Assembly (NCBI RefSeq): GCF_003003215.1
Contig: NZ_PVUF01000005.1
Span: 1-64,000 of the forward strand
DNA from: Tritonibacter scottomollicae
GTDB taxonomy: Bacteria; Pseudomonadota; Alphaproteobacteria; Rhodobacterales; Rhodobacteraceae
Direction: 5' to 3'
DNA length: 64,000 nt
Shown: piece after piece, positions 10,223 through 55,881 of the stretch
Layout: each line of letters opens with the position of its first letter
Position numbering within the stretch: the stretch's first letter is position 1
Made by a program: the position numbers and the translations under genes
The notes under the pieces: generated by a model
What the model was told of the DNA's origin: nothing
Database searches by the model: none
The model's input: the letters and a program-made list of their open reading frames with translations, nothing else

Positions 10223-10273
10223 ATCGTCACTCCTTTTGGGTTTGAAGTCTCTTCAGAGTGAGGTTTGGCATTG

Positions 10274-10286
10274 TTCAAAAGTGAAA
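10274..10286. promoter_or_regulatory. Candidate LysR-type operator in divergent intergenic region
   Basis: The sequence TTCAAAAGTGAA is an inverted repeat (TTCA/TGAA arms, four-base spacer) and fits the T-N11-A LysR box when the following A is included. It lies between the divergent monooxygenase-like gene and the LysR gene. It is partly embedded in a longer ATTG...CAAT dyad (10270-10299 region). Binding is inferred. Confidence 0.4.
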
Positions 10287-10328
10287 TATATTGTCAATTG
10301 AAGAAGTCTAAATTCCGGATTTGAAATC

Positions 10329-39304: not shown

Positions 39305-40459
39305 ATGTGGCGCAGCCTGGCCTCGAATATGCTGACGATCCTGATCGTCGGCCTGTTCCTCTTCGCGGGCGTGATCCTGTGGGGTAAGAATGAATACTCC
39401 TCCGAGGGTCCGCTGTCGGAGGCAATCTGCTTTCAGGTGCCGAGCGGGACCAATATGTCCCGTGTCAGCCGAAAGCTGGAAGAAGACGGCGCCGTCAGCA
39501 GCAGCTCGATCTTCCGTATTGGTGTGAAATACTCCGACAAGGCGCAGGATCTGAAGGCTGGTAGCTATCTGGTCGAACCCGGCGCGTCGATGGAGAGCAT
39601 CATTGACACCATCACGCGCGGCGGTGCTTCCACCTGCGGCACAGAGATCGTTTACCGCGTCGGTGTCACCCGCGTGCTGGCCGAAGTGCGCGAGCTGGAT
39701 CCGGCGACGAATTCATTCGTTGAACGTGCGGAGTTCGTGCCCGGCGTTGATGAAACCCCTGCGGTTTACACCGAGAAAAAAGCCGAGGCCGACACCCGTT
39801 ATCGGATCGCGCTGGCCGAAGGTGTGACCAGCTGGCAGGTGGTTGAATCGCTCAAAGCCATGGATGTCCTGGAAGGCGACCCCGGCCGTCGTCCCGCCGA
39901 GGGCAGCCTGGCGCCGGACAGCTACGAGGTCCGTCCCGGAACCTCGCGCGAGGCTGTTCTGACCGAGATGAAGGACCGCCAGGACAAGCGCATCGCCGAT
40001 GCCTGGGAGGCGCGCAGCTCTGATGCCGCGGTGGAAAGCCCCGAGGAAATGCTGATCCTTGCCTCGATCATCGAAAAGGAAACCGCGGTGGCGGACGAAC
40101 GTGGCGTGGTGGCATCTGTCTTCACAAACCGTCTCAATCGCGGCATGCGCCTGCAGACCGACCCGACGGTGATCTATGGTGTCACCAAGGGCGAAGGCGT
40201 GCTGGGCCGGGGCCTGCGCCAGAGCGAGCTGCGCGGTGTCACCCCCTGGAACACCTATGTGATCGAAGGGCTGCCGCCGACACCGATCGCCAATCCGGGC
40301 CTGGAGAGCCTGGTGGCTGCGGTGAACCCGGAGCAGACCGATTATGTGTTCTTTGTCGCCGATGGTACCGGTGGACACGCCTTTGCGGAGACGCTGGAAG
40401 AGCACAATCGCAACGTGGCCAAGTGGCGCCAGATCGAAGCTGAGCGCAACAACAACTGA
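39305..40459 (+). CDS. mltG: Endolytic murein transglycosylase
   Basis: A 384-residue MltG/YceG protein with an N-terminal transmembrane helix (about residues 8-28), a LysM-like domain and the catalytic YceG domain. The catalytic glutamate lies in LILASIIEKETAVADERGVV, and the substrate motif NRLNRGMRLQTDPTVIYG follows. It cuts nascent glycan strands and sets their length. It begins one base after the fabF stop, so translation is probably coupled, and a terminator follows. Confidence 0.95.
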   Translation: MWRSLASNMLTILIVGLFLFAGVILWGKNEYSSEGPLSEAICFQVPSGTNMSRVSRKLEEDGAVSSSSIFRIGVKYSDKAQDLKAGSYLVEPGASMESIIDTITRGGASTCGTEIVYRVGVTRVLAEVRELDPATNSFVERAEFVPGVDETPAVYTEKKAEADTRYRIALAEGVTSWQVVESLKAMDVLEGDPGRRPAEGSLAPDSYEVRPGTSREAVLTEMKDRQDKRIADAWEARSSDAAVESPEEMLILASIIEKETAVADERGVVASVFTNRLNRGMRLQTDPTVIYGVTKGEGVLGRGLRQSELRGVTPWNTYVIEGLPPTPIANPGLESLVAAVNPEQTDYVFFVADGTGGHAFAETLEEHNRNVAKWRQIEAERNNN

Positions 40460-40776
40460 TACGACATGAGGGGGGCGCGGCCCCCCTCTTGCTGTCTGCG
40501 GCACATCTCTCAGCCCCGCCGAGCCCCCCTGTCGAACGACCGGGACGGGCTGCGGCCTTTTTCCTCTCCTTCCAGTTTTCTGAGACGCGAGGCTTCGCGG
40601 TGCAGGACCGCCGTTGCCTCTGCGAACGGTTCGGTCAACGCATGTTCATCTGCGGCCTGTAAAACTATGTCAGGCAGCTGGAAAATGTGACGACGCGGAC
40701 CGGGCCCCTCGATGGGGCCGTACTCCGCGCCTCCCGTTTCTCCCATCGGTTTGTTTCGACACGAGGCAGCCCCCTC
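40460..40776. other. Region between mltG and the GTA cluster
   Basis: After the mltG terminator (40468-40490) no further gene is supported. The remaining 280 bases should contain the GTA operon promoter. No CtrA-type TTAA site was seen here; in R. capsulatus the GTA promoter is bound by GafA. Confidence 0.5.
40468..40490 (+). terminator. Terminator of mltG
   Basis: GAGGGGGGC and GCCCCCCTC pair around a three-base CGC/GCG loop, nine bases after the stop. The T-tail (TTGCTGT) is weak. Confidence 0.65.
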
Positions 40777-41130
40777 ATGACACCACAAACCCCAGAAGAG
40801 CTGGTCGAGATCAGCTCTGACCTTCTGCGCTCTCTCCACGACAGTCTCCGGCGTGCGCGTCGGATCAGCGAGGATTATCTCGCCCAGTTCGAGGCCGAAC
40901 AGGACATCAACCCCGACACCGCGCAGTTGAAACCACAGATTGCCAAACTTGATGGCCTGATCCGTGACATCCAGAAAGTGGAGAAAACCCTTGTCGATCG
41001 CAAAGATGCCCCTGGTGCCGCCCGCATGGTGGCGTTCGACCTCTGTGCCGCCCGCGATGAGATCGAGCGCCGCCTGGCTGGCCTCCGTGCCGCACTTCAT
41101 GACGCAGATGTGGCTGGAGGAGATGGATGA
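40777..41130 (+). CDS. GTA g1, small terminase-like protein
   Basis: A 117-residue helical protein starting MTPQTPEELVEISSDLL. It has long amphipathic helices, and GAGG lies 11 bases upstream of the ATG. Its place directly before the large terminase of the gene transfer agent matches R. capsulatus orfg1, which has been identified as the small terminase that recognises DNA for packaging. The longer open frame adds 30 residues that do not look conserved. Its 3' end overlaps the large terminase by 74 bases. Confidence 0.82.
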   Translation: MTPQTPEELVEISSDLLRSLHDSLRRARRISEDYLAQFEAEQDINPDTAQLKPQIAKLDGLIRDIQKVEKTLVDRKDAPGAARMVAFDLCAARDEIERRLAGLRAALHDADVAGGDG

Positions 41131-42400
41131 GCACACCTTGGCGGCGATGCCTTATGTGTTTGATCTCTGGGCGCTGCCGCATCAATGCGCGCCTGTGGGC
41201 GAGTGGCGCGCCTGGGTGATCCTCGGCGGACGCGGTGCGGGCAAGACCCGCGCCGGTGCGGAATGGGTGCGGTCCGAGGTTGAGGGGGCAGAGCCCTTTG
41301 GCATCGGTCGTGCGCGCCGGGTGGCGCTGGTGGGCGAGACCTACGATCAGGTGCGCGACGTGATGATCCATGGCGACAGTGGCATCCTGGCCTGCTCGCC
41401 GCCGGACCGCTGTCCGGAGTGGCGCGCAGGCGAACGCAAGCTGGTCTGGCCCAATGGGGCCACCGCGCAGGCGTTTTCTGCTTCCGACCCCGAGGCGTTG
41501 CGCGGGCCGCAGTTTGATGCCGCATGGGTGGACGAGTTGGCGAAATGGCGCCGCGCTCAGGACGCATGGGATATGCTGCAGTTCGCTCTGCGTTTGGGCA
41601 CGGCCCCGCGCGCCTGTGTGACCACCACACCGCGCAATGTGCCGCTGCTGAAACAGCTGCTTCAGAGCCCCTCGACCGTCACCACCCATGCACCGACCGA
41701 GGCGAACCGCGCCAATCTCGCGTCGAGCTTCCTTGCGGAGGTGCGGGCGCGTTATGCGGGTTCGCGTCTGGTGCGGCAGGAACTGGACGGCGTGATGTTG
41801 GCGGATGTGGATGGCGCACTCTGGACTTCCGCGATGCTGGAGCAGCTCCAACGCCGTGACAGGCCTCCGCTCGACCGGATCGTGGTGGCCGTTGATCCTT
41901 CGGTGAGTGCGCACAAAGGCTCGGATGCCTGTGGCATCATCGTCGCCGGGGCGCAGACGCAGGGGCCGATCTCCGAGTGGCGCGCCTATGTGCTGGCCGA
42001 TCACACGGTCCAGGGGCAGGGACCGGCCGGCTGGGCGCGCGCCGCCATTGCCGCGCGGGATAGCTACCGGGCCGACCGGCTGGTGGCGGAGGTCAATCAG
42101 GGCGGTGCGCTGGTGGGGTCTGTCTTGCGGCAGGTTGACCCTTTGGTGCCCTTCACCCCCGTTCACGCCAGCACAGGCAAGGCTGCGCGCGCAGAACCCG
42201 TGGCAGCGCTGTATGAGCAAGGTCGCGTGCATCATGCAGCGGGCCTGCAAGAGCTGGAGGAGCAGATGTGCCTGATGACAGCGCAGGGATATCGCGGCGA
42301 TGGCTCTCCCGACCGGGTGGATGCGCTGGTCTGGGCGCTGCATGCGCTGATTGTCGGCCCGGCAGAGCAGCATCGCTGCCCCAAGATCCGCCGTCTCTAG
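41057..42400 (+). CDS. GTA g2, terminase large subunit
   Basis: A 447-residue packaging ATPase/nuclease. It shows Walker A GGRGAGKTRAG, a Walker B-like stretch FDAAWVDELAKWR and the RNaseH-like nuclease aspartates in RIVVAVDPSVSAHKGSDACG. It pumps host DNA into GTA heads. The ATG at 41057 is chosen because the following SSAAWLASVP resembles the usual N-terminus of GTA terminases, although no good ribosome-binding site is visible. ATGs at 40964 and 41099 are alternatives. The frame overlaps g1. Confidence 0.93.
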   Translation: MRSSAAWLASVPHFMTQMWLEEMDEHTLAAMPYVFDLWALPHQCAPVGEWRAWVILGGRGAGKTRAGAEWVRSEVEGAEPFGIGRARRVALVGETYDQVRDVMIHGDSGILACSPPDRCPEWRAGERKLVWPNGATAQAFSASDPEALRGPQFDAAWVDELAKWRRAQDAWDMLQFALRLGTAPRACVTTTPRNVPLLKQLLQSPSTVTTHAPTEANRANLASSFLAEVRARYAGSRLVRQELDGVMLADVDGALWTSAMLEQLQRRDRPPLDRIVVAVDPSVSAHKGSDACGIIVAGAQTQGPISEWRAYVLADHTVQGQGPAGWARAAIAARDSYRADRLVAEVNQGGALVGSVLRQVDPLVPFTPVHASTGKAARAEPVAALYEQGRVHHAAGLQELEEQMCLMTAQGYRGDGSPDRVDALVWALHALIVGPAEQHRCPKIRRL

Positions 42401-42599
42401 GGCACGCGCCATCCCAAATCGAACCTGTGAAACGCCCGCCTCGCGCGGGCGTTTTGCTTTTCTATCAGTGGCTTGACGCAAGGTGTTGCGCCCCCGGCGC
42501 GCGCCCTGCTGGCGGGATGTTCAACCCTCTGTGGCAGATTGTTTTCCAACACGACGGGCATCGGCCCAAACGACAACCGGAACGGCAAAGGAGTGCACC

Positions 42600-43805
42600 A
42601 TGGTCTTTGACCTGCTGCGACGCAAGACGGGGCGAGTGGATCAGACGGCGGCTGCGGCCCCGTCGCAAAAGGCCAGCGCTGCGGCGCGGGTGCTGCCCAT
42701 GGGCAATGGCACGCAGGCCGCCTGGGGGCCGCGCGACACGGTCTCTCTGACCCGTGCAGGGTTTCTGGGCAACCCGGTTGGCCACCGCGCGGTGAAACTC
42801 ATCGCCGAGGCCGCCGCCGCGCTGCCATTGGTGCTGCAAAGCGCGGATGCGCGTTATGACAGCCACCCGCTGCTCTCGCTGCTGTCGCGCCCCAATGCGG
42901 CGCAGGCGCGGGCAGAGATGCTGGAAGCGCTCTATGCCAATCTGCTCCTGTCGGGCAATGCCTATATCGAGGCGGTTGCCGCTGATGAGGGCTGGCCGGT
43001 GGAGCTGCACATCCTGCGCCCGGATCGCATGCGGGTGGTGCCGGGGGGTGATGGCTGGCCGATGGGCTATGACTATACTGTCGGCGGCAAGGCGCATCGC
43101 TTTGCGATCGACCCCGCGCGCCCCGCGATCTGCCACCTCAAGAGCTTTCATCCGCTGGACGATCACTACGGTCTGGCGCCGCTTCAGGCTGCGGCCACCG
43201 CGGTCGAGGTGCATGGCGCCGCCGCACGTTGGTCAAAATCGCTGCTGGACAATGCCGCGCAACCTTCCGGCGCGCTGGTCTGGACCGGATCGGACGGGCT
43301 TGGGCAGATGGGCGACGACCAGTTCCGCCGCCTCTCCGAGGAGATCGAGGCCAATTTCCAGGGAGCGCGCAATGCCGGACGGCCGATGGTGCTGGAGGGC
43401 GGTCTGGATTGGAAACAGATGGGTTTCAGCCCCTCCGATATGGAGTTCCACCGCACCAAGGACAGCGCCGCGCGCGAGATCGCGCAGGCCTTTGGTGTGC
43501 CGCCGATGCTCCTCGGCATTCCGGGCGATGCCACCTATGCCAACTATCAGGAGGCCAACCGGGCGTTCTATCGCCTGACGGTGTTGCCCTTGGCGATGCG
43601 GGTGGCGGCGAAACTCTCTGACTGGCTGATGCGCTTTGGCGGAGAAGTTCTGGAGCTGAAACCGGACCTCGATCAGGTACAGGCCCTCAGCACCGAACGC
43701 GAGGCGCAGTGGCGGCGCGTCACGCAGGCGGATTTCCTGACGGAGTCTGAGAAGCGCCAGATGCTGGGCCTGCCGCCGCGCAGCGTGGAGGGGCCGGATG
43801 ACTGA
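42600..43805 (+). CDS. GTA g3, HK97-type portal protein
   Basis: A 401-residue portal protein. The phage portal core shows GNPVGHRAVKLIAEAAAALP, LLSGNAYIEAV and GVPPMLLGIPGDATYANYQE motifs. Twelve copies form the DNA channel at the head vertex. The ATG at 42600 has AAGGAG at a good distance, whereas the longer frame begins in a region of different composition. An eight-base overlap with g3.5 follows. Confidence 0.95.
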   Translation: MVFDLLRRKTGRVDQTAAAAPSQKASAAARVLPMGNGTQAAWGPRDTVSLTRAGFLGNPVGHRAVKLIAEAAAALPLVLQSADARYDSHPLLSLLSRPNAAQARAEMLEALYANLLLSGNAYIEAVAADEGWPVELHILRPDRMRVVPGGDGWPMGYDYTVGGKAHRFAIDPARPAICHLKSFHPLDDHYGLAPLQAAATAVEVHGAAARWSKSLLDNAAQPSGALVWTGSDGLGQMGDDQFRRLSEEIEANFQGARNAGRPMVLEGGLDWKQMGFSPSDMEFHRTKDSAAREIAQAFGVPPMLLGIPGDATYANYQEANRAFYRLTVLPLAMRVAAKLSDWLMRFGGEVLELKPDLDQVQALSTEREAQWRRVTQADFLTESEKRQMLGLPPRSVEGPDD

Positions 43806-44022
43806 CTACCCGTTGCCGCCCTTTGACTGTGCCCCAAGCCAGCGACTGAATGCCCATGAACGCGTGAGCGAAATCCGTCAGGACGCATTGAACCGTCGTC
43901 TGGATCGGATGGAACGGATGATGGAACGACTGGAAAAACGGCTGTGGATCACCGTCTACGGCGTCGCTGCCGTGATCCTTGCGCAGGCCTTTCAGGGCTT
44001 TTTGTCGGTGCAGTTGCCCTGA
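43798..44022 (+). CDS. GTA g3.5, small coiled-coil membrane protein
   Basis: A 74-residue protein. A coiled-coil region (EIRQDALNRRLDRMERMMER) precedes a C-terminal transmembrane helix (about residues 51-70, VYGVAAVILAQAFQGFL). It corresponds by position and size to orfg3.5 of the R. capsulatus GTA. Holin-like roles have been suggested for small membrane proteins in such clusters but are not shown here. Confidence 0.85.
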   Translation: MTDYPLPPFDCAPSQRLNAHERVSEIRQDALNRRLDRMERMMERLEKRLWITVYGVAAVILAQAFQGFLSVQLP

Positions 44023-44057
44023 GCGATAATCAAGATATTTCAGAAAGGTAGAGCGTG

Positions 44058-44630
44058 ATGCTGACAGATCATGAGCCCCGGCTCGAGACCAAATTCGCCC
44101 GCTTTGGCGAGGCGCTGTCCCTAAGCGCCGGAGAGGTGATCGAAGGCTATGCGAGCCTCTTTGGTGCCCCCGATCAGGGCAAGGATATCGTCACCCGTGG
44201 CGCCTATGCGGCATCATTGGCGGCGCATCACTCGCGCGGCAGCAAGGTCAAGATGCTCTGGCAGCATGACCCGAGCCACCCCATCGGCGTCTGGGATGAG
44301 ATCCTTGAGGACGACACGGGCCTGCGCGTCAAAGGGCGCATCCTCACGGAGACCCAGAAAGGCGCAGAGGCCGCCGCCCTGGTGCGCGCCGGGGCCATCG
44401 AGGGGCTGTCGATCGGCTATCGCACCGTGAAGGCGACCCGCGACAAGGAAGGCCACCGGCGGTTGGAGGAACTGCAACTCTGGGAGGTTTCGCTGGTGAC
44501 CTTCCCGATGCTGCCCTCGGCCCGGCTGTCGCGGCTTGCCCGGCGCGAGGCGGAGGCGGCGAAATCCGACGCCTCCGATGCGGGCCTGCGCGCCCTCGCT
44601 GACGCCCTGCGCGCGGCCACCAGACCCTAA
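44058..44630 (+). CDS. GTA g4, HK97-family prohead protease
   Basis: A 190-residue serine protease of HK97 prohead type. It shows GYASLFGAPDQGKDIVTRGAYA, the catalytic histidine in MLWQHDPSHPIG and the catalytic serine in IEGLSIGYRTVKA. It matures the capsid by cleaving the scaffold part of the capsid protein. The ATG at 44058 directly follows a GTG; AAAGGTAGAG precedes both. The capsid gene starts 20 bases downstream. Confidence 0.93.
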   Translation: MLTDHEPRLETKFARFGEALSLSAGEVIEGYASLFGAPDQGKDIVTRGAYAASLAAHHSRGSKVKMLWQHDPSHPIGVWDEILEDDTGLRVKGRILTETQKGAEAAALVRAGAIEGLSIGYRTVKATRDKEGHRRLEELQLWEVSLVTFPMLPSARLSRLARREAEAAKSDASDAGLRALADALRAATRP

Positions 44631-44650
44631 CCCCCGAAAGAGGACCAGAG

Positions 44651-45847
44651 ATGACAGATCATCCATTCACGGGCCACGCGCCCGAGGATGCGGCGACCCC
44701 GCCGCAAAATGTGGCCACGGAAGTGAAACAGGCCGTTTCTCAATTCGTGCAGCATTTCAAGGGGTTCCAAGACGACGTGACCGAGAAACTCAAACAGACG
44801 GAAGAGCGTATGACCATGTTGGATCGTAAAACCCAAACCGCGGCCCGGCCGCATCTGGCGGCGGCGGAGGTCGATGGCGCGCCGCATCAAAAGGCCATGC
44901 AGGCCTATCTGCGCCATGGCGACGAAGAGGGCTTTCGCGGCCTCGACATGGGCACCAAGGCCCTGTCGACGGCGGTGAATTCCGATGGCGGTTTCCTCGT
45001 CGACCCGCAGACCTCGGATGTGGTGAAATCGGTGCTGCAATCCACCGCGTCGATCCGTGCGGTGGCCTCGGTGGTCAATGTGGAGGCGACGTCGTTTGAC
45101 GTGCTGATCGATCATTCCGACGTGGGCGCGGGCTGGGCCACCGAGACCGGCTCGGTCACGGAAACCGGCACGCCCTCCATTGATCGCATCGTGATCCCGC
45201 TGCACGAGCTTTCGGCCCTGCCCAAGGCGTCGCAACGGCTTCTGGATGACTCGGCCTTTGACATCGAGGGCTGGCTCGCGGGCCGGATCGCCGACAAATT
45301 TGCCCGCGCCGAGGCGCAGAGCTTTATTTCGGGCGATGGGATCGACAAGCCCACCGGCATCCTGACCCATCCCACGGTCGACAATGACAGCTGGAGCTGG
45401 GGCAATATCGGCTATGTGGCCACCGGCAGCGACGGCGATATCGGCTCGGCGGATGCGATCATCGACCTGGTCTATGCGCTGGACGCGCGCTACCGCGCCG
45501 GTGCGAGTTTTGTGATGAACTCCAAAACGGCCGGTCTGATCCGCAAGCTGAAGGACGCTGATGGCCGCTTCCTGTGGTCCGATGGTCTTGCGGCGGGCGA
45601 GCCTGCGCGGCTGATGGGCTACCCGGTTTTGGTGGCCGAGGACATGCCGGATGTGGCCTCTGACAGCCTCTCGATTGCCTTTGGCGACTTTGGCGCAGGC
45701 TACACCATCGCCGAACGTCCGGACTTGCGCGTCCTGCGCGACCCGTTCTCCGCCAAGCCGCATGTGCTGTTTTACGCCACCAAGCGCGTAGGCGGCGATG
45801 TGAGCGACTTTGCCGCGATCAAGCTGATGAAATTCGGGCTGAGCTAA
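44651..45847 (+). CDS. GTA g5, major capsid protein (HK97 fold)
   Basis: A 398-residue capsid protein. An N-terminal helical scaffold-like segment (about residues 10-100) is followed by the HK97 core: STAVNSDGGFLVDPQTSDVV, a P-domain and the C-terminal GDFGAGYTIAERPDLRVLRD and KLMKFGLS. The protease upstream would remove the scaffold segment. GAGGACCAGAG precedes the start. Size and order match orfg5. Confidence 0.96.
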   Translation: MTDHPFTGHAPEDAATPPQNVATEVKQAVSQFVQHFKGFQDDVTEKLKQTEERMTMLDRKTQTAARPHLAAAEVDGAPHQKAMQAYLRHGDEEGFRGLDMGTKALSTAVNSDGGFLVDPQTSDVVKSVLQSTASIRAVASVVNVEATSFDVLIDHSDVGAGWATETGSVTETGTPSIDRIVIPLHELSALPKASQRLLDDSAFDIEGWLAGRIADKFARAEAQSFISGDGIDKPTGILTHPTVDNDSWSWGNIGYVATGSDGDIGSADAIIDLVYALDARYRAGASFVMNSKTAGLIRKLKDADGRFLWSDGLAAGEPARLMGYPVLVAEDMPDVASDSLSIAFGDFGAGYTIAERPDLRVLRDPFSAKPHVLFYATKRVGGDVSDFAAIKLMKFGLS

Positions 45848-46022
45848 GCGCTTAGGCCCGGATGACGGGGCCGGCAGCCCGGCTCCGTCGGCGGGTGCGT
45901 GCCTCATGGGTTTGTCGTCCAGCTGCTCCCTCCGTCCGAGCGGCAGACCCGGTGCGCACCCGTCCAAGGGACGGCGCGGCAGAGACCGCGTGAGGGAGAT
46001 AGATTTTCAGCGGAGAGAGCCG

Positions 46023-46625
46023 ATGATTTTGCACGAACTGACCCCGCTGCCCGACAGCATTTTGCCGCTCGCGGCGTTCAAGGCGCATCTGCGTCTGGGC
46101 ACCGGTTTTGGCGAGGAGGCGTTGCAGGACGCGGTGCTTCTGGCCTTCTTGCGCGCCAGCCTCGCGGCGATCGAGGCGCGCACCAACAAGGCGCTCTTGA
46201 CGCGCGACTATGAGTGGCGGCTGAACGAATGGCCCCGCGTGGTGGAGCTGCCGGTGGCGCCGGTTTCAAGCGTCTCGCAGGTGGCGCTGGTGGATCAGAC
46301 CGGCGCGGAGACGGAGGTGCCCGTGGCGGCCTATGCGCTGGCACCCGACGCCCATGCTCCGCGCCTGACGCCGCGCGCGGCGGTCTGGCCAATGATGCCC
46401 TCGGGGGGCGGCGCGGTGATCCGCTTTACCGCCGGGATGGCCGCAACATGGGACGCGCTTCCGGCCGATCTGGCGCAGGCGGTGATGTTGCTGGCGGCGC
46501 ATTATTATGAGTATCGCGATGACACCTCGCTGCATGCGGGCTGCATGCCCTTTGGCGTGGCGAGCCTGTTGGACCGGCACCGCATGCCGCGCCTGAGCCT
46601 GTCCCGGAGCGGGGTGCACTCATGA
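46023..46625 (+). CDS. GTA g6, head-tail connector protein
   Basis: A 200-residue protein with the phage head-tail connector/adaptor pattern: LPLAAFKAHLRLGTGFGEEA, AIEARTNKALLTRDYEW and a C-terminal LLAAHYYEYRDD. The ATG at 46023 follows AGCGGAGAGAG, whereas the longer frame adds 39 unrelated residues. It corresponds to orfg6, an adaptor ring between portal and tail. g7 starts before its stop. Confidence 0.9.
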   Translation: MILHELTPLPDSILPLAAFKAHLRLGTGFGEEALQDAVLLAFLRASLAAIEARTNKALLTRDYEWRLNEWPRVVELPVAPVSSVSQVALVDQTGAETEVPVAAYALAPDAHAPRLTPRAAVWPMMPSGGGAVIRFTAGMAATWDALPADLAQAVMLLAAHYYEYRDDTSLHAGCMPFGVASLLDRHRMPRLSLSRSGVHS

Positions 46626-46960
46626 GCGCGCCGCGATTGAACCGCCCATTGCGGCTGGAAGATCCGCAAGCGACCAGCGATGGCGCCGGGGGATTTGACA
46701 TCACTTGGGTCGAGCTGGGCCAGCACTGGGCCGAGGTTGACGCGCTGACGGGGCGCGAGAGTGGCCGACGTGGCACCTCCGTCTCGCTCCAGCGCTATCG
46801 GATTACCCTGCGTGCCGCCCCGGTGGGATCAAACGCGCGCCCCAAACCGGACCAGCGGTTTCGCGAAGGCAGTCGCATCTACAAGATCGACGCCGTGGCC
46901 GAGCGCGACATGGACGGGCGTTACCTCACTTGTTTCGCAACAGAGGAGCTGGCCACATGA
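46622..46960 (+). CDS. GTA g7, head closure protein
   Basis: A 112-residue phage head-closure (SPP1 gp16-like) protein, with LNRPLRLEDPQATSDGAGGF and WAEVDALTGRESGR, and the RYRITLRAA beta segment typical of the family. It matches orfg7. It overlaps g6 by four bases and g8 by four bases, so translation is coupled along this part of the operon. Confidence 0.9.
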   Translation: MSAPRLNRPLRLEDPQATSDGAGGFDITWVELGQHWAEVDALTGRESGRRGTSVSLQRYRITLRAAPVGSNARPKPDQRFREGSRIYKIDAVAERDMDGRYLTCFATEELAT

Positions 46961-47364
46961 CCTATGCGCTGTCTCACAGCCTGCAAACCGCCGTCTACCA
47001 GCACCTGATCGGCGATGCCGCGTTGGCGGCAGAGGTGGGCACCGCGATCTACGACATGCTGCCTGCGGGCACGCTTCCGGGGATCTATGTGACCCTCGGC
47101 GCTGAGAGCGTGCGGGACCGATCCGATGTCACAGGCGGCGGCGCGCTGCATCGCTTTACCGTGACCGTGGTCGCCAATGCGGCCGGGTTCAGTGCGGCCA
47201 AACGCGCGGCGGCGGCGATCTCTGACGCGCTGGTGGATGCGCCGCTGACCCTCGCACGCGGGCATCTGGTGGGGCTGTGGTTCGACCGCGCCAACGCCAA
47301 GAGGCTGAGCAACGGGGATCGCTCCATTGCGCTGCGGTTTTCCGCGCGTCTTGAAGACTCCTGA
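46957..47364 (+). CDS. GTA g8, tail terminator-like protein (DUF3168)
   Basis: A 135-residue DUF3168 protein (MTYALSHSLQTAVYQHLIGD, then GTLPGIYVTLGAESVRDRSD). By position and family it corresponds to orfg8, a stopper/tail-terminator type connector. The ATG overlaps the stop of g7 and has GAGGAG upstream, which rules out the longer frame. Confidence 0.9.
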   Translation: MTYALSHSLQTAVYQHLIGDAALAAEVGTAIYDMLPAGTLPGIYVTLGAESVRDRSDVTGGGALHRFTVTVVANAAGFSAAKRAAAAISDALVDAPLTLARGHLVGLWFDRANAKRLSNGDRSIALRFSARLEDS

Positions 47365-47399
47365 ATGAAATTCAACGCATTAACAGAAGGACCTCACCC

Positions 47400-47812
47400 A
47401 TGAGTGCTCAAAACGGCAAGGATCTCCTGATCAAGGTGGACATGACCGGCACCGGCAGTTTCACCACCATCGCAGGCCTGCGTGCCACCCGTATCAGTTT
47501 CAACGCCGAGAGCGTCGATGTGACCAGCCTCGACAGTGCGGGCGGCTGGCGCGAGCTGTTGGGCGGAGCCGGCGTGCGGTCGGCAAACCTCTCAGGCCGG
47601 GCGTGTTTCGCGATGCCAACACCGACGAGCGTGCGCGGCAGTTGTTCTTTGATGGCGAGACCCCAGCGTTCCAGGTGGTGATTCCGGATTTCGGCACCGT
47701 CGAAGGGCCGTTTCAGGTCACAGCGCTGGAGTACGCAGGCAGCCACAATGGCGAGGCCACCTATGAGCTGTCGCTGGCCTCCGCCGGTGCGCTGACCTTT
47801 ACGGCGGCCTGA
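47400..47812 (+). pseudogene. GTA g9, major tail protein, broken by one-base frameshift
   Basis: The gene starts well (MSAQNGKDLLIKVDMTGTGS) and reads to ANLSG at 47597. It then loses the family sequence and stops at 47681. The expected continuation, VFRDANTDERARQLFFDG and IPDFGTVEGPFQVTALEYAG, is in the -1 frame from about 47600 to 47812. Restoring one base near 47598-47600 joins both parts into a normal 137-residue orfg9 protein. The junction (GGCCGGG) is not a classical slippery site. It may be a real mutation or an assembly error. Confidence 0.85.
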
Positions 47813-47815
47813 GCC

Positions 47816-48139
47816 ATGGCAAACCCCTATGCAGGCGAAGTGACGCTGGTGCTCAATGGTCGGCTGCAGGTGCTGAAGCTGACACTGGGCGCGCTGGCGG
47901 AACTGGAGGCGGAGCTGGGCGAGGGTGACTTGATCTCCCTGGTGCAACGCTTTGAAACCGGGCGGTTTTCCTCGCGCGATATGCTGGCGCTCTTGGCGGC
48001 GGGGCTGCGTGGCGGCGGGTCTGAGATCAGCCGCGAAGATCTGGCGCAGGCCGAGATCAAGGGCGGCGTAATGCAGGCCACCAAGGTGGCGGCGCAATTG
48101 TTGGCGCTCAGTTTCGCGCTGCCTGCGGGGGATGCATGA
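47816..48139 (+). CDS. GTA g10, tail assembly chaperone-like protein
   Basis: A 107-residue GTA-family protein with LVLNGRLQVLKLTLGALAEL at its N-terminus, as in gene transfer agent orfg10 proteins (GTA TAC class). It begins three bases after the broken g9 and overlaps the next gene by four bases. Together with the following gene it is thought to help assemble the tail around the tape measure (family inference). Confidence 0.88.
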   Translation: MANPYAGEVTLVLNGRLQVLKLTLGALAELEAELGEGDLISLVQRFETGRFSSRDMLALLAAGLRGGGSEISREDLAQAEIKGGVMQATKVAAQLLALSFALPAGDA

Positions 48140-48351
48140 GCCGTGCGGCAATGCTGGACTGGCCGGCCCTGATGCGGGCCGGGATGCTGGGGCTGCGGCT
48201 GACCCCGCGCGAGTTCTGGCAACTGACCCCGGCAGAGCTGCGGCTGATGCTGAACCTTGATGCCGGCACACCGCCCATGGACCGCGACCGCCTGAGCCAT
48301 CTGATGACGCAGTTCCCGGATCAGATCAACGACGTGAACCAACCGGAGTAA
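48136..48351 (+). CDS. GTA g10.1, small tail assembly chaperone (phage TAC family)
   Basis: A 71-residue protein containing LRLTPREFWQLTPAELRLML, the signature of the rhodobacterial phage TAC/DUF2376 family. It overlaps g10 by four bases. It corresponds to the small gene between orfg10 and orfg11 in R. capsulatus. Confidence 0.88.
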   Translation: MSRAAMLDWPALMRAGMLGLRLTPREFWQLTPAELRLMLNLDAGTPPMDRDRLSHLMTQFPDQINDVNQPE

Positions 48352-48354
48352 CCC

Positions 48355-49014
48355 ATGGCAAACACGACAGATTCCGACTTTGGATCCCAGGCGGGGCCGC
48401 TGGAGGACAGCCTTGGCGATGCCGCCGGGATGGCGGCGCAGTTCACCGCCGAGATGGACCGGGTGCGCGCGGCCTTTGCGGCGACCCAGGCCGATGCGGC
48501 CGATTTTGAAACCGGCCTGAGCCGGGGGCTGCGGCGCGCGATGAAGGATCTGGTGGTGGATGGCGACAGTCTGAGCGATGCGCTGGAAAGCCTCGCGAAG
48601 ACGATGATCAACACCACCTTCAACTCCGCCATGCGCCCGGTGACGGATCACCTCGGCGGGTTGGTGAGCGACGGGATCGGCGCGCTGGTCGGGGGCATCC
48701 TGCCCTTTGCCGACGGCGCGGCCTTCAGTCAGGGCAAGGTCACGCCCTTTGCACGTGGTGGCGTGGTGTCCTCGCCGACGCATTTCCCGATGCGCGGCGG
48801 GCTGGGGCTGATGGGCGAAGCGGGACCGGAGGCGATCCTGCCGCTGGCACGTGGCCAGGACGGCAGCCTCGGGGTGAAGACGCAAGGCGGCGGCACATCT
48901 CCGACCGTGGTGATGAATGTCTCCACCCCCGATGTGGCCGGGTTCCAGCGTTCGCGTGGGCAGATCGCCGCCCAGATGAGCCGCATGCTCGCACGCGGAA
49001 ACCGTAATAGGTAA
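48355..49014 (+). CDS. GTA g11, short tail tape measure protein
   Basis: A 219-residue protein with helical segments (MAAQFTAEMDRVRAAFAATQ) and a C-terminal glycine-rich domain (PFADGAAFSQGKVTPFARGG, then LGLMGEAGPEAILPLARG) found in phage tape measure proteins. The GTA tail is short, and so is the protein. It matches orfg11. Confidence 0.9.
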   Translation: MANTTDSDFGSQAGPLEDSLGDAAGMAAQFTAEMDRVRAAFAATQADAADFETGLSRGLRRAMKDLVVDGDSLSDALESLAKTMINTTFNSAMRPVTDHLGGLVSDGIGALVGGILPFADGAAFSQGKVTPFARGGVVSSPTHFPMRGGLGLMGEAGPEAILPLARGQDGSLGVKTQGGGTSPTVVMNVSTPDVAGFQRSRGQIAAQMSRMLARGNRNR

Positions 49015-49027
49015 GGAGGGTAAGCCC

Positions 49028-49660
49028 ATGAGTTTTCACGAAGTTCGTTTCCCGGAGACGCTCTCTTTCGGCTCTGTTGGCGGGCCGGAGCGGCGCACGG
49101 ATGTGGTGACGCTGGCCAATGGCCATGAGGAACGTAACACCCCATGGGCCCATGCAAGGCGGCGTTATGATGCGGGGCTTGGCCTGCGCGGACTTGAGGA
49201 TATTGCCGCGCTGATTGCCTTTTTCGAGGCCCGCCAGGGCCAGCTCCATGGGTTTCGCTGGAAGGACTGGACCGACTATGCGTCATCGCTGCCGGGTCAG
49301 GATGTAACGTTTGAGGATCAGCTGATCGCTTTGGGTGATGGCGACACCAACAGGTTTCAACTTGCCAAACGCTACCGCTCCGGCCCGCATGAATACCTGC
49401 GTCCGATCAGCAAACCCGTGGCGGGCACTGTGCGCCTTGGGATCGACAATGAGGCGCTGGTGGAGGGTGTGGATTATGACCTCGACCTGACCACGGGCGA
49501 GGTGACGCTGGCCTATGTGCCGGAAATTGGCCGTGAAATCCGTGCCGGGTTTGAGTTCGACGTGCCTGTCCGCTTTGACACGGATCGCATCCAGACCTCG
49601 GTGGCGTCGTTTCAGGCGGGCGAGGCCCCGAATGTGCCAGTGGTGGAGGTGCGTGTGTGA
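49028..49660 (+). CDS. GTA g12, distal tail protein (DUF2460)
   Basis: A 210-residue DUF2460/TIGR02217 protein: MSFHEVRFPETLSFGSVGGP, then GQLHGFRWKDWTDYAS. It corresponds to orfg12, the distal tail protein that joins tail tube and baseplate. AAGGAGGG precedes the start. Its stop overlaps the start of g13 by one base. Confidence 0.93.
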   Translation: MSFHEVRFPETLSFGSVGGPERRTDVVTLANGHEERNTPWAHARRRYDAGLGLRGLEDIAALIAFFEARQGQLHGFRWKDWTDYASSLPGQDVTFEDQLIALGDGDTNRFQLAKRYRSGPHEYLRPISKPVAGTVRLGIDNEALVEGVDYDLDLTTGEVTLAYVPEIGREIRAGFEFDVPVRFDTDRIQTSVASFQAGEAPNVPVVEVRV

Positions 49661-50538
49661 TGGATCGCGAGGGCTTAAACACGCATCTTAAATCTGGGAC
49701 CACCACGGTGTGCCGCGCTTGGGCCGTCAGTCGCGCCGACGGGGTGACGCTGGGGTTCACCGACCATGACCGGGATCTGAGCTTTGACGGCGTGACATTC
49801 CGCGCCGGAACCGGCCTCACGGCGCGCAGCCTGATGCAAAGCACCGGGCTTGCGGTCGACAACAGCGAAGCACTCGGCGCACTCAGTTCCGATGCGGTGC
49901 GCGAGGCGGATATTGAATCCGGGCGCTATGATGGGGCTGAGGTGCGGGCGTGGCTGGTGAACTGGGCCGACACCACTCAGCGCGCCTTGCAATTTCGCGG
50001 CTCCTTGGGCGAGATCCGCCGCGCAGGTGGCGCGTTTGAGGCTGAGCTGCGCGGCCTGACCGAAGGGTTGAACCAGCCGCTGGGGCGGGTGTTTCAGACG
50101 CCCTGTAGCGCGGTTCTGGGGGATGCGGCGTGTGAGTTTGACCTCAACACTGCGGGTTATGTCACTGAGGTATCAGTGGAAAACATCGACGAGGGGCAGC
50201 ATTTCACATGGGGTGCGCTCGATGGGTTCGCGCCGGAGTGGTTCACCGGCGGGCGGCTCACGGTGCGGAGCGGCGCAGGTGCTGGTCTGTGGGCACCGAT
50301 CCGGTCGGACAGTATGAGCGAGCGCCGTGAAATCACCCTCTGGCAGCCGATCCGCGCGGATATTCAGCCCGGTGACCGGGTGCGTCTGACCGCAGGCTGT
50401 GACAAGCGCATGAGCACCTGTCGGCTGAAGTTCGACAATCTGGTGAACTATCAGGGCTTTCCCGATATCCCCGGCGAGGACTGGATGGTGGCGGTGCCCA
50501 AACGCAATGGCCAGAACACCGGCGGCAGCCGCCGATGA
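49660..50538 (+). CDS. GTA g13, tail hub protein (DUF2163)
   Basis: A 292-residue protein with an N-terminal DUF2163 domain (WAVSRADGVTLGFTDHDRDL) and a C-terminal phage BR0599-like domain. Four cysteines, two in TPCSAVLGDAACEFD and two in AGCDKRMSTCRLKF, could hold an iron-sulphur cluster, as known for the related lambda gpL. It matches orfg13. The ATG at 49660 is preferred to an adjacent GTG. It overlaps g14 by four bases. Confidence 0.92.
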   Translation: MDREGLNTHLKSGTTTVCRAWAVSRADGVTLGFTDHDRDLSFDGVTFRAGTGLTARSLMQSTGLAVDNSEALGALSSDAVREADIESGRYDGAEVRAWLVNWADTTQRALQFRGSLGEIRRAGGAFEAELRGLTEGLNQPLGRVFQTPCSAVLGDAACEFDLNTAGYVTEVSVENIDEGQHFTWGALDGFAPEWFTGGRLTVRSGAGAGLWAPIRSDSMSERREITLWQPIRADIQPGDRVRLTAGCDKRMSTCRLKFDNLVNYQGFPDIPGEDWMVAVPKRNGQNTGGSRR

Positions 50539-50963
50539 GCCGCGACATCAACACAGAGGCGCTAGGTGTGGCGCGGCAATGGCTGGGCACGCCCTATAGA
50601 CATCAGGGGGCCACGCGGGGCGCGGGCTGCGATTGTCTCGGGCTGATCCGGGGCATCTGGCGCAGCCTATATGGCACCGAACCCGAACCCGTGCCGCCCT
50701 ATACCCGCGACTGGGCCGAACGCGGCACCGAGGAACGCCTGTGGCGGGCGGCGCTGCGGCATATGCAGCCCGTCCACCACGCAGCGCCCGGTCAGGTGAT
50801 CCTGTTTCGTATGCAAGGGGGTGCTGTGGCCAAACACCTTGGCCTGCAAAGCAGCGCGTCCCGTTTCATCCATGCCTACAGCGGTCATGGCGTGGTCGAG
50901 AGCGCGCTGACGCCCGCATGGCAGCGGCGCATCGTGGCGCGCTTTGCCTTTCCCGCAGAGTGA
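50535..50963 (+). CDS. GTA g14, NlpC/P60 cell-wall peptidase
   Basis: A 142-residue NlpC/P60 hydrolase. The catalytic cysteine lies in GAGCDCLGLIRGIWRSLYG and the histidine in AVAKHLGLQ. It corresponds to orfg14, a tail-tip peptidase that opens the recipient's peptidoglycan for DNA entry. It overlaps g13 by four bases. Confidence 0.93.
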   Translation: MSRDINTEALGVARQWLGTPYRHQGATRGAGCDCLGLIRGIWRSLYGTEPEPVPPYTRDWAERGTEERLWRAALRHMQPVHHAAPGQVILFRMQGGAVAKHLGLQSSASRFIHAYSGHGVVESALTPAWQRRIVARFAFPAE

Positions 50964-51021
50964 GCGAGCGGGCCGCGGCCCGGACTTTCTCCACCCCAAC
51001 GATCCCTGAGGAGGACATATC

Positions 51022-54000
51022 ATGGCGACATTGGTACTGGCGGCGGCAGGCTCCGCCGTGGGCGGGGCAATCGGCGGCTCTGTGGCGGGGCTGTCGACGG
51101 CGATCATTGGTCGCGCGGTTGGTGCAACCCTGGGCCGGGTCATTGACGAGCGCCTCTTGGGCAGTGGCAGTGCTGCGGTGGAAACCGGCAAGGTCGACCG
51201 GTTTCGCATCACCACCGGCAGCGATGGTGAGCCGATGGCGCAGGTCTTTGGGCGTATGCGGTTGGGCGGGCAGGTGATCTGGGCGACAGAGTTTGTCGAG
51301 ACCGCTACCACCACATCCTCGGGCGGCAAGGGCTCTGCCCCCAAACGCACCACCACCAGCTATTCCTACAGCCTGTCGATGGCGGTGGCGATCTGCGCGG
51401 GCGAGATCACACGGGTGTCGCGGGTCTGGGCCGATGGCGAGGAGGTCGCACTGCGCGATCTCAATATGACCGTCTACCGGGGCAGTCAGGACCAGCAGCC
51501 CGACCCGCTGATGGAGGCGGTGGAGGGCGCGGGCCAGGTGCCTGCCTATCGCGGCACCGCCTATGTGGTGTTTGAAAACCTCGATCTGGAGCGGTTCGGC
51601 AACCGGGTGCCGCAGTTCTCATTCGAGGTGCTGCGCGCGGAGCAGCCCTCGGGCGAGACCTACGACCAGGATCTGGCGCAGATTGTGCCCGGCGTGGCGC
51701 TGATCCCCGGCACGGGCGAATACAGTCTGGCCAGCCAGCCGGTCTATATGCAGCACGGGCCCGGCGCGCAGAAAGCCGCCAATATCAACCAGATCTCCGG
51801 CGCGACCGATCTGGTCGCCTCGGTCGATGCGCTGTCTGAGGAGCTGCCGCAGGCCGAGGCGGTGTCCATGGTGGTGTGCTGGTTTGGCGACGATCTGCGC
51901 TGTGGTGACTGTACCCTAGCGCCGAAGGTGGAGCAAAAACTGGCGGATGGGTCGATGCCGTGGCAGGTGGCGGGGCTCAACCGGGCCAGTGCGGACGAGG
52001 TCATCAAGGACGCGGGCGCAGCCGTTTATGGCGGCACCCCGGCGGATCAGGCGGTGGTGCAGGGCATCCAGCACCTGAACGCCCAAGGCAAGCGGGTGAT
52101 GTTTTACCCGTTCATCCTGATGGAGCAGCAGGCGGGCAATGATCTGCCCGATCCCTACAGCTCTGCCGAGGGCCAGCCGGTGCTGCCGTGGCGGGGGCGG
52201 ATCACGCTCTCGACCGCGCCGGAGCGCGCAGGCAGCCCGGATGGCACTGCGCTCGCGGATACGGAGGTCGCTAGCTTTCTGGGCACCGCACAGGCCAGCG
52301 ATTTCACTATCTCGGGCGGGCAGGTGAGCTATCACGGCCCCGATGAGTGGAGTTTTCGCCGATTTATTCTGCATTACGCAGCACTTTGTGCAGCGGCTGG
52401 CGGCGTCGAGGCGTTCTGCATCGGCTCGGAACTGCGCGGGTTGACGCAGATCCGGGGGGCGAGCGGCTTTCCCTTTGTGCAGGGGCTGAAGGATCTTGTG
52501 ACCGAGGTGCGCGCGCTCTTGGGGCCGGAGGTCAAACTGGGCTATGCGGCGGATTGGTCAGAGTATTTCGGCTATCAGACGCCGGAGGGCGACCATCTGT
52601 TTCACCTCGATCCGCTGTGGTCCGACCCGCAGATCGATTTCATCGGTATCGACAATTACATGCCGCTCAGCGACTGGCGCGAGGGGGAGGATCATCTCGA
52701 CGCGCAGGAGTGGCCTGCGATCTATGATCTCGGCTACCTCAAGGCCAATATCGAGGGCGGTGAGGGCTATGACTGGTATTATCATTCCCCTGAGGCCGAA
52801 GCGGCGCAGATCCGCACGCCGATCACCGATGGTGCTTATGATGAGCCGTGGATCTATCGCAACAAGGACATCCGCAGCTGGTGGTCGCTGCCGCATCACG
52901 ACCGGATTGGCGGGGTGCGGTCCGAGACCGCGACCGATTGGGTGCCGCAATCCAAACCGATCTGGTTCACCGAACTCGGCTGTGCGGCCATCGACAAGGG
53001 CACCAATGAGCCGAACAAATTCCTTGATCCCAAAAGCTCTGAATCGCAATTACCGCGTGCCTCCAATGGCTTGCGCGACGATCTGATCCAACAGCAGTAC
53101 CTGCGCGCGCAGCTGACATACTGGCAGGAGGCAGCGCATAATCCGACTTCCAGCGCCTATGGCGGCGCGATGGTGGACCTGAGCCACGCCTATGTCTGGG
53201 CCTGGGACGCGCGGCCCTTTCCGGCCTTTCCCAACCGGGTGGAGGTCTGGGACGATGGCGAGAATTACGCACGCGGGCACTGGCTCAACGGGCGCGCGGG
53301 GCAGCGCACGCTGGCCTCTGTGGTGACGGAGATCTGCCGGGAGGCGGGCGTGACGGAGATCGACGCAAGCCAGCTTTGGGGTATTGTGCGCGGCTATGCA
53401 GTCTATGACGTGGCGGAGGCGCGTAGTGCCTTGCAGCCCCTGATGCTGCGCCACGGCTTTGACGCGATCGAGCGCGATGGCACGCTGATCTTTCGGCTGC
53501 GCGACGGGCTGAACGCATTGGATCTGGAGACGGATGCGCTGGCGGTGCTGCCAGAGGTGGACGGCGATCAGGAACAAAGCCGCATGCCCGAGGCAGAGCT
53601 GATGGGCCGGGTGCGCCTGCGCTTTGTCGAATGGGGCGGCAGCCACGACACCGTGGCCGAAGAAGCGGTTCTGCCCGACGAGGCCACCCATGCGGTGAGC
53701 CAGAATGACCTGCCCATGGCCTTGACCCGCGCCGAGGGGCGGCAGGTGGTGCAGCGCTGGCTGGCGGAGGCACGGATTTCGCGTGACACCGCACGCTTTG
53801 CCCTGCCGCCCTCGCGCGCGCTGGAGGTTGCGGCGGGCGATGTGGTGCGCCTGCCGGGGCAGGACGGTGAGGGCGCGGCGCGCTACCGGGTGGACCGGGT
53901 GGAACAGGCCGAGGCGCAGATCCTGGAGGCTGTGCGCATTGAACCCGTGGTCTATCAGCCGCTGGCCACGCCTGAGGATCTGCCGCGTAATGATGCCTTT

Positions 54001-54942
54001 GCCGCGCCCACGCCGGTGTTGCCGCTATTCCTCGATCTGCCCTTGATGCGCGGGGATGAGGTGCCGCATGCACCGCATGTCTGTGCCACGGCGCAGGACT
54101 GGCCGGGCGCGGTTGCCCTCTATGGTGCTGACTTAGGCGGGGAGTTTGCGCTGGAAGAGCTGCTGCCCGCCCGCGCCACCGTGGGGCTGACCAGAACGGA
54201 ATTGCTGGCGGGGCCAATCGGGCGATGGGACAGGGGCGCTGATCTCGAGGTGGAACTGATCGCTGGCACACTGGACAGTCAGGAGCACCTTGCGGTGCTG
54301 GGTGGCGCAAACCGGCTGGCGATCGGAGATGGCAGCCCGGAGAACTGGGAGGTGATCCAGTTTGCTGAGGCCGAGCTGATCGCGCCCAACCGCTATCTGA
54401 TCCGCAACCGCCTGCGCGGCCAATACGGCAGTGACGGGGTGATGCCGGTGGCCTGGCCGGTTGGGTCTTATGTGGTGGTTATGGATGCGGCTGTGGAGCA
54501 GCTGGATCTTGCCATCTCCCAGCGTCGGATTGCGCGCGACTATCGCTTTGGCCCCGCACGGCGGGCCTATGATGACCCGTCTTATGTGGCGCTTTCTGCG
54601 GCCTTTGATGGCGCGGGCCTGCGCCCCTATGCGCCGGTGCATTTGCGTACGCCGGATAGTCTGGGCAATGACATGGCGTTCCACTGGATCCGCCGCACCC
54701 GGATCGAGGGCGACAGCTGGGACATGGAAGAGGTGCCCTTGGGCGAGGAGAGCGAGCGCTACCGTGTGCAAGTGCTCTCGGGCACGACGGTCCTGCGGGA
54801 TGCGCGTGTCTCGACCCCGGCGTGGGTCTATGCGGCGGCGATGCAGATCAGCGATGGCGCCAGCCCCGGCGATGTGGTGCAGGTGGCGCAGATCTCCGCC
54901 CGCTATGGCGCCGGGCCGGTGGCGGAGTGGATCCTCGGCTGA
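51022..54942 (+). CDS. GTA g15, large tail-tip / host-interaction protein
   Basis: A 1306-residue protein, the expected size for orfg15. The N-terminal glycine/alanine-rich stretch (AAAGSAVGGAIGGSVAGLS) is followed by the GTA TIM-barrel domain at about 430-750 (HLDAQEWPAIYDLGYLKANI and IWFTELGCAAIDKGTNEPNK) and a phage tail-tip domain from about 790 onward. It forms the baseplate centre and contacts the recipient cell. GAGGAC precedes the start. Its stop overlaps the next gene by one base. Confidence 0.95.
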   Translation: MATLVLAAAGSAVGGAIGGSVAGLSTAIIGRAVGATLGRVIDERLLGSGSAAVETGKVDRFRITTGSDGEPMAQVFGRMRLGGQVIWATEFVETATTTSSGGKGSAPKRTTTSYSYSLSMAVAICAGEITRVSRVWADGEEVALRDLNMTVYRGSQDQQPDPLMEAVEGAGQVPAYRGTAYVVFENLDLERFGNRVPQFSFEVLRAEQPSGETYDQDLAQIVPGVALIPGTGEYSLASQPVYMQHGPGAQKAANINQISGATDLVASVDALSEELPQAEAVSMVVCWFGDDLRCGDCTLAPKVEQKLADGSMPWQVAGLNRASADEVIKDAGAAVYGGTPADQAVVQGIQHLNAQGKRVMFYPFILMEQQAGNDLPDPYSSAEGQPVLPWRGRITLSTAPERAGSPDGTALADTEVASFLGTAQASDFTISGGQVSYHGPDEWSFRRFILHYAALCAAAGGVEAFCIGSELRGLTQIRGASGFPFVQGLKDLVTEVRALLGPEVKLGYAADWSEYFGYQTPEGDHLFHLDPLWSDPQIDFIGIDNYMPLSDWREGEDHLDAQEWPAIYDLGYLKANIEGGEGYDWYYHSPEAEAAQIRTPITDGAYDEPWIYRNKDIRSWWSLPHHDRIGGVRSETATDWVPQSKPIWFTELGCAAIDKGTNEPNKFLDPKSSESQLPRASNGLRDDLIQQQYLRAQLTYWQEAAHNPTSSAYGGAMVDLSHAYVWAWDARPFPAFPNRVEVWDDGENYARGHWLNGRAGQRTLASVVTEICREAGVTEIDASQLWGIVRGYAVYDVAEARSALQPLMLRHGFDAIERDGTLIFRLRDGLNALDLETDALAVLPEVDGDQEQSRMPEAELMGRVRLRFVEWGGSHDTVAEEAVLPDEATHAVSQNDLPMALTRAEGRQVVQRWLAEARISRDTARFALPPSRALEVAAGDVVRLPGQDGEGAARYRVDRVEQAEAQILEAVRIEPVVYQPLATPEDLPRNDAFAAPTPVLPLFLDLPLMRGDEVPHAPHVCATAQDWPGAVALYGADLGGEFALEELLPARATVGLTRTELLAGPIGRWDRGADLEVELIAGTLDSQEHLAVLGGANRLAIGDGSPENWEVIQFAEAELIAPNRYLIRNRLRGQYGSDGVMPVAWPVGSYVVVMDAAVEQLDLAISQRRIARDYRFGPARRAYDDPSYVALSAAFDGAGLRPYAPVHLRTPDSLGNDMAFHWIRRTRIEGDSWDMEEVPLGEESERYRVQVLSGTTVLRDARVSTPAWVYAAAMQISDGASPGDVVQVAQISARYGAGPVAEWILG

Positions 54943-55226
54943 TGCAGCAACCAGTGCTCTGGGAAGATATTCGCAGCCTTGCGCGGGCGCTTCTGGCCCA
55001 TCCGGAACCCCGGCGTGCGGCGCTCTGTCGGCAAATCCTGCAGGGCGCGGCACGGGCAAAACGTCAGGCGCAGGCCACCGGCCGCTGTCATCCGCGCTGG
55101 GGCGATGGATCTCTGGACCGGGCGGCGCGCTGCTATCCGTTGGCGCCAGAGCCCTTTCCGGGGGACCGGGACTATGCCCATTGCCTGCGCGTGGCATTGG
55201 CTGCTGCAGCCCGCGCGCGAAAATGA
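54942..55226 (+). CDS. Small conserved gene ending the GTA operon
   Basis: A 94-residue basic protein starting MQQPVLWEDIRSLARALLAH, rich in Ala and Arg, with GRCHPRWGDGSLDRAARCYP in the middle. Its ATG overlaps the stop of g15, so it is translated with the GTA operon. I recognise it only as a protein often found after g15 in Rhodobacteraceae; its function is unknown. A longer in-frame extension upstream lies inside g15 and is unlikely. Confidence 0.7.
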   Translation: MQQPVLWEDIRSLARALLAHPEPRRAALCRQILQGAARAKRQAQATGRCHPRWGDGSLDRAARCYPLAPEPFPGDRDYAHCLRVALAAAARARK

Positions 55227-55227
55227 G

Positions 55228-55260
55228 AACGCCCCGGCACCATATGGTAGCCGGGGCGTT
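55228..55260. terminator. Bidirectional terminator after GTA operon
   Basis: AACGCCCCGG and CCGGGGCGTT form a ten-base stem around CACCATATGGTAG, which itself can pair. It starts one base after the last GTA gene. The complement has TCTCATTTTC, so it could also end the cold-shock transcript. Confidence 0.75.
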
Positions 55261-55314
55261 CAAATGTCGGTTCAGCAGAGGCGGATCAGCTGAAGAGCAC
55301 GATCCGCTGGGTGC

Positions 55315-55521
55315 TTAGGCCAGTTCCAGATTGGTGGCGGATTCGCGACCGTCGCGACCTGCCTCGATCTCGAACGTCACTGCCTGGCCATCGGCCAGAC
55401 CGGTCAGACCGGAGCGCTCTACTGCGGAGATGTGTACGAATACGTCGCTGGAGCGGCCATCAACTTCGATGAAACCAAAACCTTTGGTGGAGTTGAACCA
55501 CTTGACGGTACCGTTTGCCAT
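55315..55521 (-). CDS. Cold-shock domain protein (CspA family)
   Basis: A 68-residue cold-shock protein with RNP1 ([10 protein letters not shown]) and RNP2 (VFVHIS) motifs, start [20 protein letters not shown]. It binds single-stranded RNA and DNA and melts mRNA structure. AAGGAACTTTT lies just upstream. An AT-rich leader of up to 200 bases on the minus strand fits the structured 5' leaders of cspA genes. Confidence 0.95.
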
Positions 55522-55881
55522 TTTAAAAGTTCCTTTTTGTCTTTGTCGCCCGCGAACGTGCGGCGACCCGGCAGCTTAACGTCGAAAGCTGGTCGGGTAG
55601 ACAGAACTTCGATAGGATAAGGTTGCTCGAGTATTTTGCCGCGAATCTTGATACATGACAAGTGGGATTCTTCGACATTTTCGATGAGTTTGCGGTGTAA
55701 GCGCATGTGGACACAAGGTAATTTTCACGCCTGTGTTACATTACGCTTGCTGATCAATGCCATCAAGGGATTGCGCTTTGCAAGCGAGGCCTTAGATCAT
55801 TAAGTTGAGCCCCGAGGTGCCGGAATAAGCTGGTGCCCCTCCCGGAGCGCGCGGAGACGCCGCGCAAGAAGGACCAAGCCT
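55522..55881. other. Divergent region of csp and cysE
   Basis: The first 180 bases are an AT-richer stretch that would be the 5' untranslated leader and promoter of the cold-shock gene. The rest is the cysE promoter region. No gene is supported. Confidence 0.5.

Follow-up and report, generated by a model that had tools for sequence, protein, structure and literature searches.

A probable, very recent single-base null mutation of the tail tube gene g9 in an otherwise complete gene transfer agent cluster of the Tritonibacter/Epibacterium group

Background

The tail of the Rhodobacter capsulatus gene transfer agent (RcGTA) is described in PMC7296036 as five discs, each a hexamer of the g9 protein. 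A first-pass annotation of the locus reported here held this protein to be essential for gene transfer agent (GTA) particles in R. capsulatus. That claim rests on the structural role; a literature search, which covered mainly listings, together with passages of PMC3646047, PMC8601537, PMC3610622, PMC8224337, PMC9836097 and PMC9765227, returned no g9 knock-out and no frameshifted g9. Closer to the present locus, the particles produced by Ruegeria (now Tritonibacter) mobilis 45A6 are considered potential GTAs in PMC3419701, and T. mobilis is termed a model producer in PMC13420450. According to the model of PMC6209664, GTA-plus cells can neither invade a population of GTA-minus cells nor withstand being invaded by them at plausible efficiencies. 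RcGTA-like clusters are old and conserved, despite this modelled disadvantage of the cells that carry them.

Here, we describe an RcGTA-type head-tail cluster with an interrupted g9 in a bacterium that we place in the Tritonibacter/Epibacterium group, with T. mobilis 45A6 as a probable congener. The stretch of DNA that was analyzed, hereafter the window, is 64,000 bases long and comprises positions 1-64000 of contig C5 in its own genome assembly (G000; 4.68 Mb in 72 contigs).

Results

Organization of the GTA cluster

The cluster occupies about 40.7-54.9 kb of the window (Table 1). Its genes are numbered by their order, after the RcGTA map. When the cluster was compared with those of two congeners, G011 and G006, all 18 pieces (16 genes and the two halves of g9) aligned to both in the order g1-g15. 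The 16 other genes, g3.5 and g10.1 included, were open and aligned from end to end or short of it by one or two codons. The first-pass impression that the GTA structural genes apart from g9 are intact is thus borne out for the 16 genes compared with two relatives, and the interruption of the set falls in g9, at 47597/47598. Homologues of g10 carry the name "gene transfer agent family protein". A complementing second copy of g9 was considered and rejected, since no second g9-like match was found in the bacterium's own genome assembly.

No Rfam match was obtained at gathering scores within 40000-56000, and a search of a phage collection gave a DNA match to one record, in which 40% of the query aligned at 64% identity. 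Outside the cluster, a 400-codon open frame at G000:C7:131324 matches DUF6456 (PF20057), which is presumably the family of the GTA activator GafA. At G000:C7:193856-194767 the same genome has a second, distant capsid match (30% identity), perhaps belonging to another prophage.

Table 1. Features of the GTA cluster and of the interrupted g9 gene in the window
Feature	Coordinates	Strand	Evidence
Open GTA genes g1-g8 with g3.5 (head and connector)	40687..47364	+	Comparison with G011 and G006
g9 N-terminal half, frame 0, 66 codons	47400..47597	+	PF06199 positions 1-64; 66/66 residues identical to G011 and G006
Junction, one base of the Ser-67 codon absent relative to relatives	47597..47598	+	DNA alignment
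Out-of-frame tail of the 93-aa truncated product, premature stop	47598..47681	+	ORF 47400-47681; same protein as P0121
g9 C-terminal half, -1 frame	47600..47812	+	PF06199 positions 66-132; 69/70 residues identical to G011, and likewise to G006
Open GTA genes g10-g15 with g10.1 (tail and baseplate)	47816..54942	+	Comparison with G011 and G006

Location and nature of the g9 frameshift

Both halves of g9, which encodes the GTA major tail (tail tube) protein, were recognized by profile search, each in its own frame. Against PF06199 (Phage_tail_2) the N-terminal half scored 72.6 bits, and the remainder, matched at 47600-47809 in the other frame, scored 79.3 bits; with a gathering score of 23.8, each half passes on its own. 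Against TIGR02126 the halves scored 45.3 and 39.9 separately, where the cut-off is 37. In place of a full-length match to PF06199 or TIGR02126 in one frame, the window's g9 thus gave two separate halves. Since both exceed the cut-offs separately, the two-frame split is more than chance. The profile matches agree with the first-pass annotation, which had read family-like sequence in frame 0 up to 47597 and in the -1 frame from 47600.

The same annotation had suggested aligning g9 with that of close relatives. A DNA alignment with G006 and G011, the nearest relatives, shows that the Ser-67 codon of the window lacks one base, between 47597 and 47598; the alignment had 14 rows, eight of them correctly oriented, and the minus-strand rows (G012, G002, G017, G014, G001 and G013) were uninformative. 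The string GGCCGGG at the junction is the product, or scar, of a single-base deletion in g9. A homopolymer slip was rejected as the cause of the deletion, because comparison with the relatives assigns the lost base to the codon of Ser 67. Of 80 genome loci, 78 have Ser at this residue, as do 150 of 160 loci from the viral collection, and the other loci have Ala (some contigs were counted twice); Ser is also present in all 137-aa g9 proteins compared among the 120 matches listed. Protein P0008, from Tritonibacter scottomollicae, differs by two residues from the halves of the window's g9. As the sequence stands, frame 0 reaches a stop at 47681 and encodes 93 residues.

Two readings would allow the broken gene to keep its function. 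In the first, which had been put forward in the first-pass annotation, programmed -1 frameshifting at GGCCGGG yields a full-length protein with Arg replacing Ser 67. The two frames do overlap, and a -1 slip at this site would give a product of normal length. However, an X XXY YYZ heptamer is absent from frame 0 of the whole ORF 47400-47681, and the RNA fold around the site is not better than shuffles (z = +1.03). Moreover, g9 is a single frame in 13 of 13 congeners having the gene, hence there is no break to conserve, and each of the 240 loci read has Ser or Ala at residue 67 (some contigs counted twice). A programmed -1 frameshift gene, in the sense of a conserved slippery heptamer with a stimulatory structure, was therefore rejected: GGCCGGG exists only through the deletion, and we consider recoding at this string vanishingly improbable.

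In the second, the tail protein is split, and the N-terminal fragment assembles with a C-terminal fragment re-initiated at GTG 47603. A residual ORF of 69 aa does run from this GTG to 47812, with AGG six bases upstream. Yet GTG 47603 is the Val-69 codon of most relatives, the tail tube protein is one beta-sandwich with a helix according to PMC8718954, and g9 is split in no congener. A two-part tail protein is thus highly unlikely.

g9 in related genomes

In the genus, PF06199 was matched in 14 of 18 genomes, the window's own included, and each of the other 13 has one uninterrupted, full-span g9. Three genomes that are 94-100% complete (G004, G007 and G010) are without g9, and their GTA capsid matches reach at most 34% identity or are absent; G008 (67% complete) has neither g9 nor a close GTA capsid match. 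Among these g9-lacking congeners, DUF6456 occurs in a 413-codon frame in G007 and as a short fragment at a contig end in G004, and was not matched in G010.

In the family, g9 was matched in 235 of 296 genomes, and among the matches listed all span at least residues 1-135. Ninety-one family genomes, lying outside the matches listed or having several matches, were chosen by eye; 80 of them were re-examined and eleven left out. An uninterrupted g9 was found in 77 of these 80, the others being the window's genome with its split gene, G189 with a remnant, and G035, in which g9 is cut by a contig end. In the remnant (L132; G189:C14:13000-32999) the g2-g9 junction at about 10000-10700 has one stop inside, and the g10-g15 matches are without stops.

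Constraint on g9 and age of the break

Relative to G011, the N-terminal half of g9 has no amino-acid difference and the C-terminal half has one, while the silent changes number 11 and 9, respectively. With G006 as the outgroup, the G000 branch of g9 carries 0 nonsynonymous and 13 synonymous codon changes. At residue 74 the three genomes have three different codons, and this position is unassignable to a branch, which we counted against a young null mutation. For the whole cluster, the ratio of nonsynonymous to synonymous changes is 45:311 on the G000 branch and 31:255 on that leading to G011 (Fisher p 0.54); the cluster is as constrained on the window's branch as in the sister lineage. A g9 gene evolving without selection over the whole branch would be expected to show clearly more amino-acid than silent changes. 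Since g9 is without such decay, it would have lacked function for no more than a small part of the branch, and since selection on g9 and on the cluster appears to have been normal up to very recent times, the mutation is likely young. Also counted against a young null was the lack of an intact g9 with otherwise identical residues among the 137-aa proteins of the 120 matches listed.

The GTA genes at 40774-54939 have a synonymous divergence from G011 of 0.08-0.40, compared with a contig median of 0.70 (175 gene rows, the median being taken over those with dN/dS under 0.4). This low divergence may reflect codon selection, which is reported for GTA genes in PMC9765227, or exchange of the cluster between species.

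Mutation or sequencing error

The main rival of a recent null mutation is an error of base calling or assembly, with g9 intact in the cell. Neither half of g9 has decayed, and an error would give exactly such a complete absence of decay. The assembly is, furthermore, a draft in 72 contigs, and g9 is uninterrupted in 77 of the 80 family genomes re-examined.

Against this stands a scan for breaks in which the window's contig was compared with 203 G011 genes, whose coding sequence totals about 196 kb. With a dN/dS filter, the scan flagged seven of the 203 G011 genes and, in reverse, 8 of 197 genes of the window's contig; the reverse scan tests G011 and not the window's genome. An unfiltered first scan had flagged 17/193 and 21/207 genes, nearly all of them N-terminal start extensions or antisense ORFs. 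Of the seven flags, one was g9, two were upstream start extensions, three were genes that are open but diverge at their ends, and one was a shadow ORF; one of the eight reverse flags was again g9. The only confirmed break among the 203 orthologues is therefore that of g9, and an error-rich assembly was rejected for this contig. The deletion also lies outside any homopolymer.

The same sequence occurs elsewhere. Window positions 40777-54942 recur without a difference, over 14,166 bases, in the IMG/VR record IMGVR_UViG_2728369517_000005, which has the same g9 deletion. The 93-aa protein (P0121) is reported on two contigs, the longer of which is as long as C5 (282,271 bases). As the IMG/VR copy and the second P0121 contig may come from the same strain, and even from the same assembly, they lower the chance of an error and do not remove it. 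We judge an error to be less likely than a very young break; it is an unlikely account, with a chance well above those of recoding and of a split protein.

In conclusion, a very recent null mutation of g9 in an otherwise complete GTA cluster is the probable explanation. The first-pass annotation had left three readings side by side. Of these, it is the recent disappearance of GTA production that has the most support, given the undecayed gene and cluster, the failure to find a second copy, the position of the deletion and the otherwise unbroken genes of the contig; sequencing error retains a smaller share of the probability, and recoding at GGCCGGG gained no support.

The Ser-67 region in other g9 genes

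A protein search returned, besides P0121, six g9 proteins of other sources whose frame breaks at Ser 67 or a few codons away from it (P0122, P0125-P0128 and P0132), with a query that contained the shifted tail and was biased towards such matches. Among them is P0126 (source name Pseudophaeobacter arcticus MAG), for which 13 contigs are reported. In the viral collection, for which the best 80 rows of each of two scans were taken (queries, the N-terminal half and P0126; some contigs in both), g9 was uninterrupted in 155 of 160 rows, cut by locus ends in four, and had an in-frame stop elsewhere in one. Matches of the P0126 scan that extended to residue 87 had looked like shifted loci, and g9 was found uninterrupted in them. 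In L152, an IMG/VR GTA contig, the g9 frame is interrupted by a stop at about residue 45. Given the query bias and the 155 uninterrupted rows, a Ser-67 hotspot across the Rhodobacterales was not established. We regard as improbable the wider proposal that a natural, very young GTA-minus lineage within a GTA-producing genus coincides with a recurrent break point of g9 in the Ser-67 region across the Rhodobacterales.

Discussion

If the deletion is a true null mutation, loss of a single base of the Ser-67 codon would leave g9 with a frame 0 product of 93 aa, predicted to consist of about half of the beta-sandwich followed by 27 unrelated residues. Lacking the second half of g9, assembly of the tail tube would be expected to fail, and with no tail tube, no functional GTA particles would be made. 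The mutation would be one of this strain or of its immediate ancestry, and may even have arisen in culture. Judging from the sequence, particle production has probably been lost in this bacterium. Since the probable congener T. mobilis 45A6 makes potential GTAs, such a loss would be a derived state.

A null mutation of g9 is an ordinary kind of event; this one would be useful as it is fresh and lies in a genus with a GTA producer. A true null would form, together with the producing congener, a natural pair for the cost of GTA production and for the persistence of broken GTA genes. A sequencing error would limit the relevance of the locus to annotation.

Among the closest known systems are the GTA clusters of the congeners G006 and G011, which have the same genes, with 89.7-100% amino-acid identity per gene to G011, and differ in that their g9 is one 137-aa frame. 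The GTA remnant of G189, a member of the same family, is likewise a GTA cluster with a disrupted g9; there, however, part of g2 is joined to the C-terminal half of g9, and g3-g8 were not matched in the 20-kb stretch. The tail tube protein of RcGTA itself (g9, Rcc01691; PDB 6TBA and related entries) is matched over residues 1-136 by the intact g9 of G011 (E 1.3e-71), and the two halves in the window belong to the same family, PF06199/TIGR02126, whereas the window's frame is broken at residue 67.
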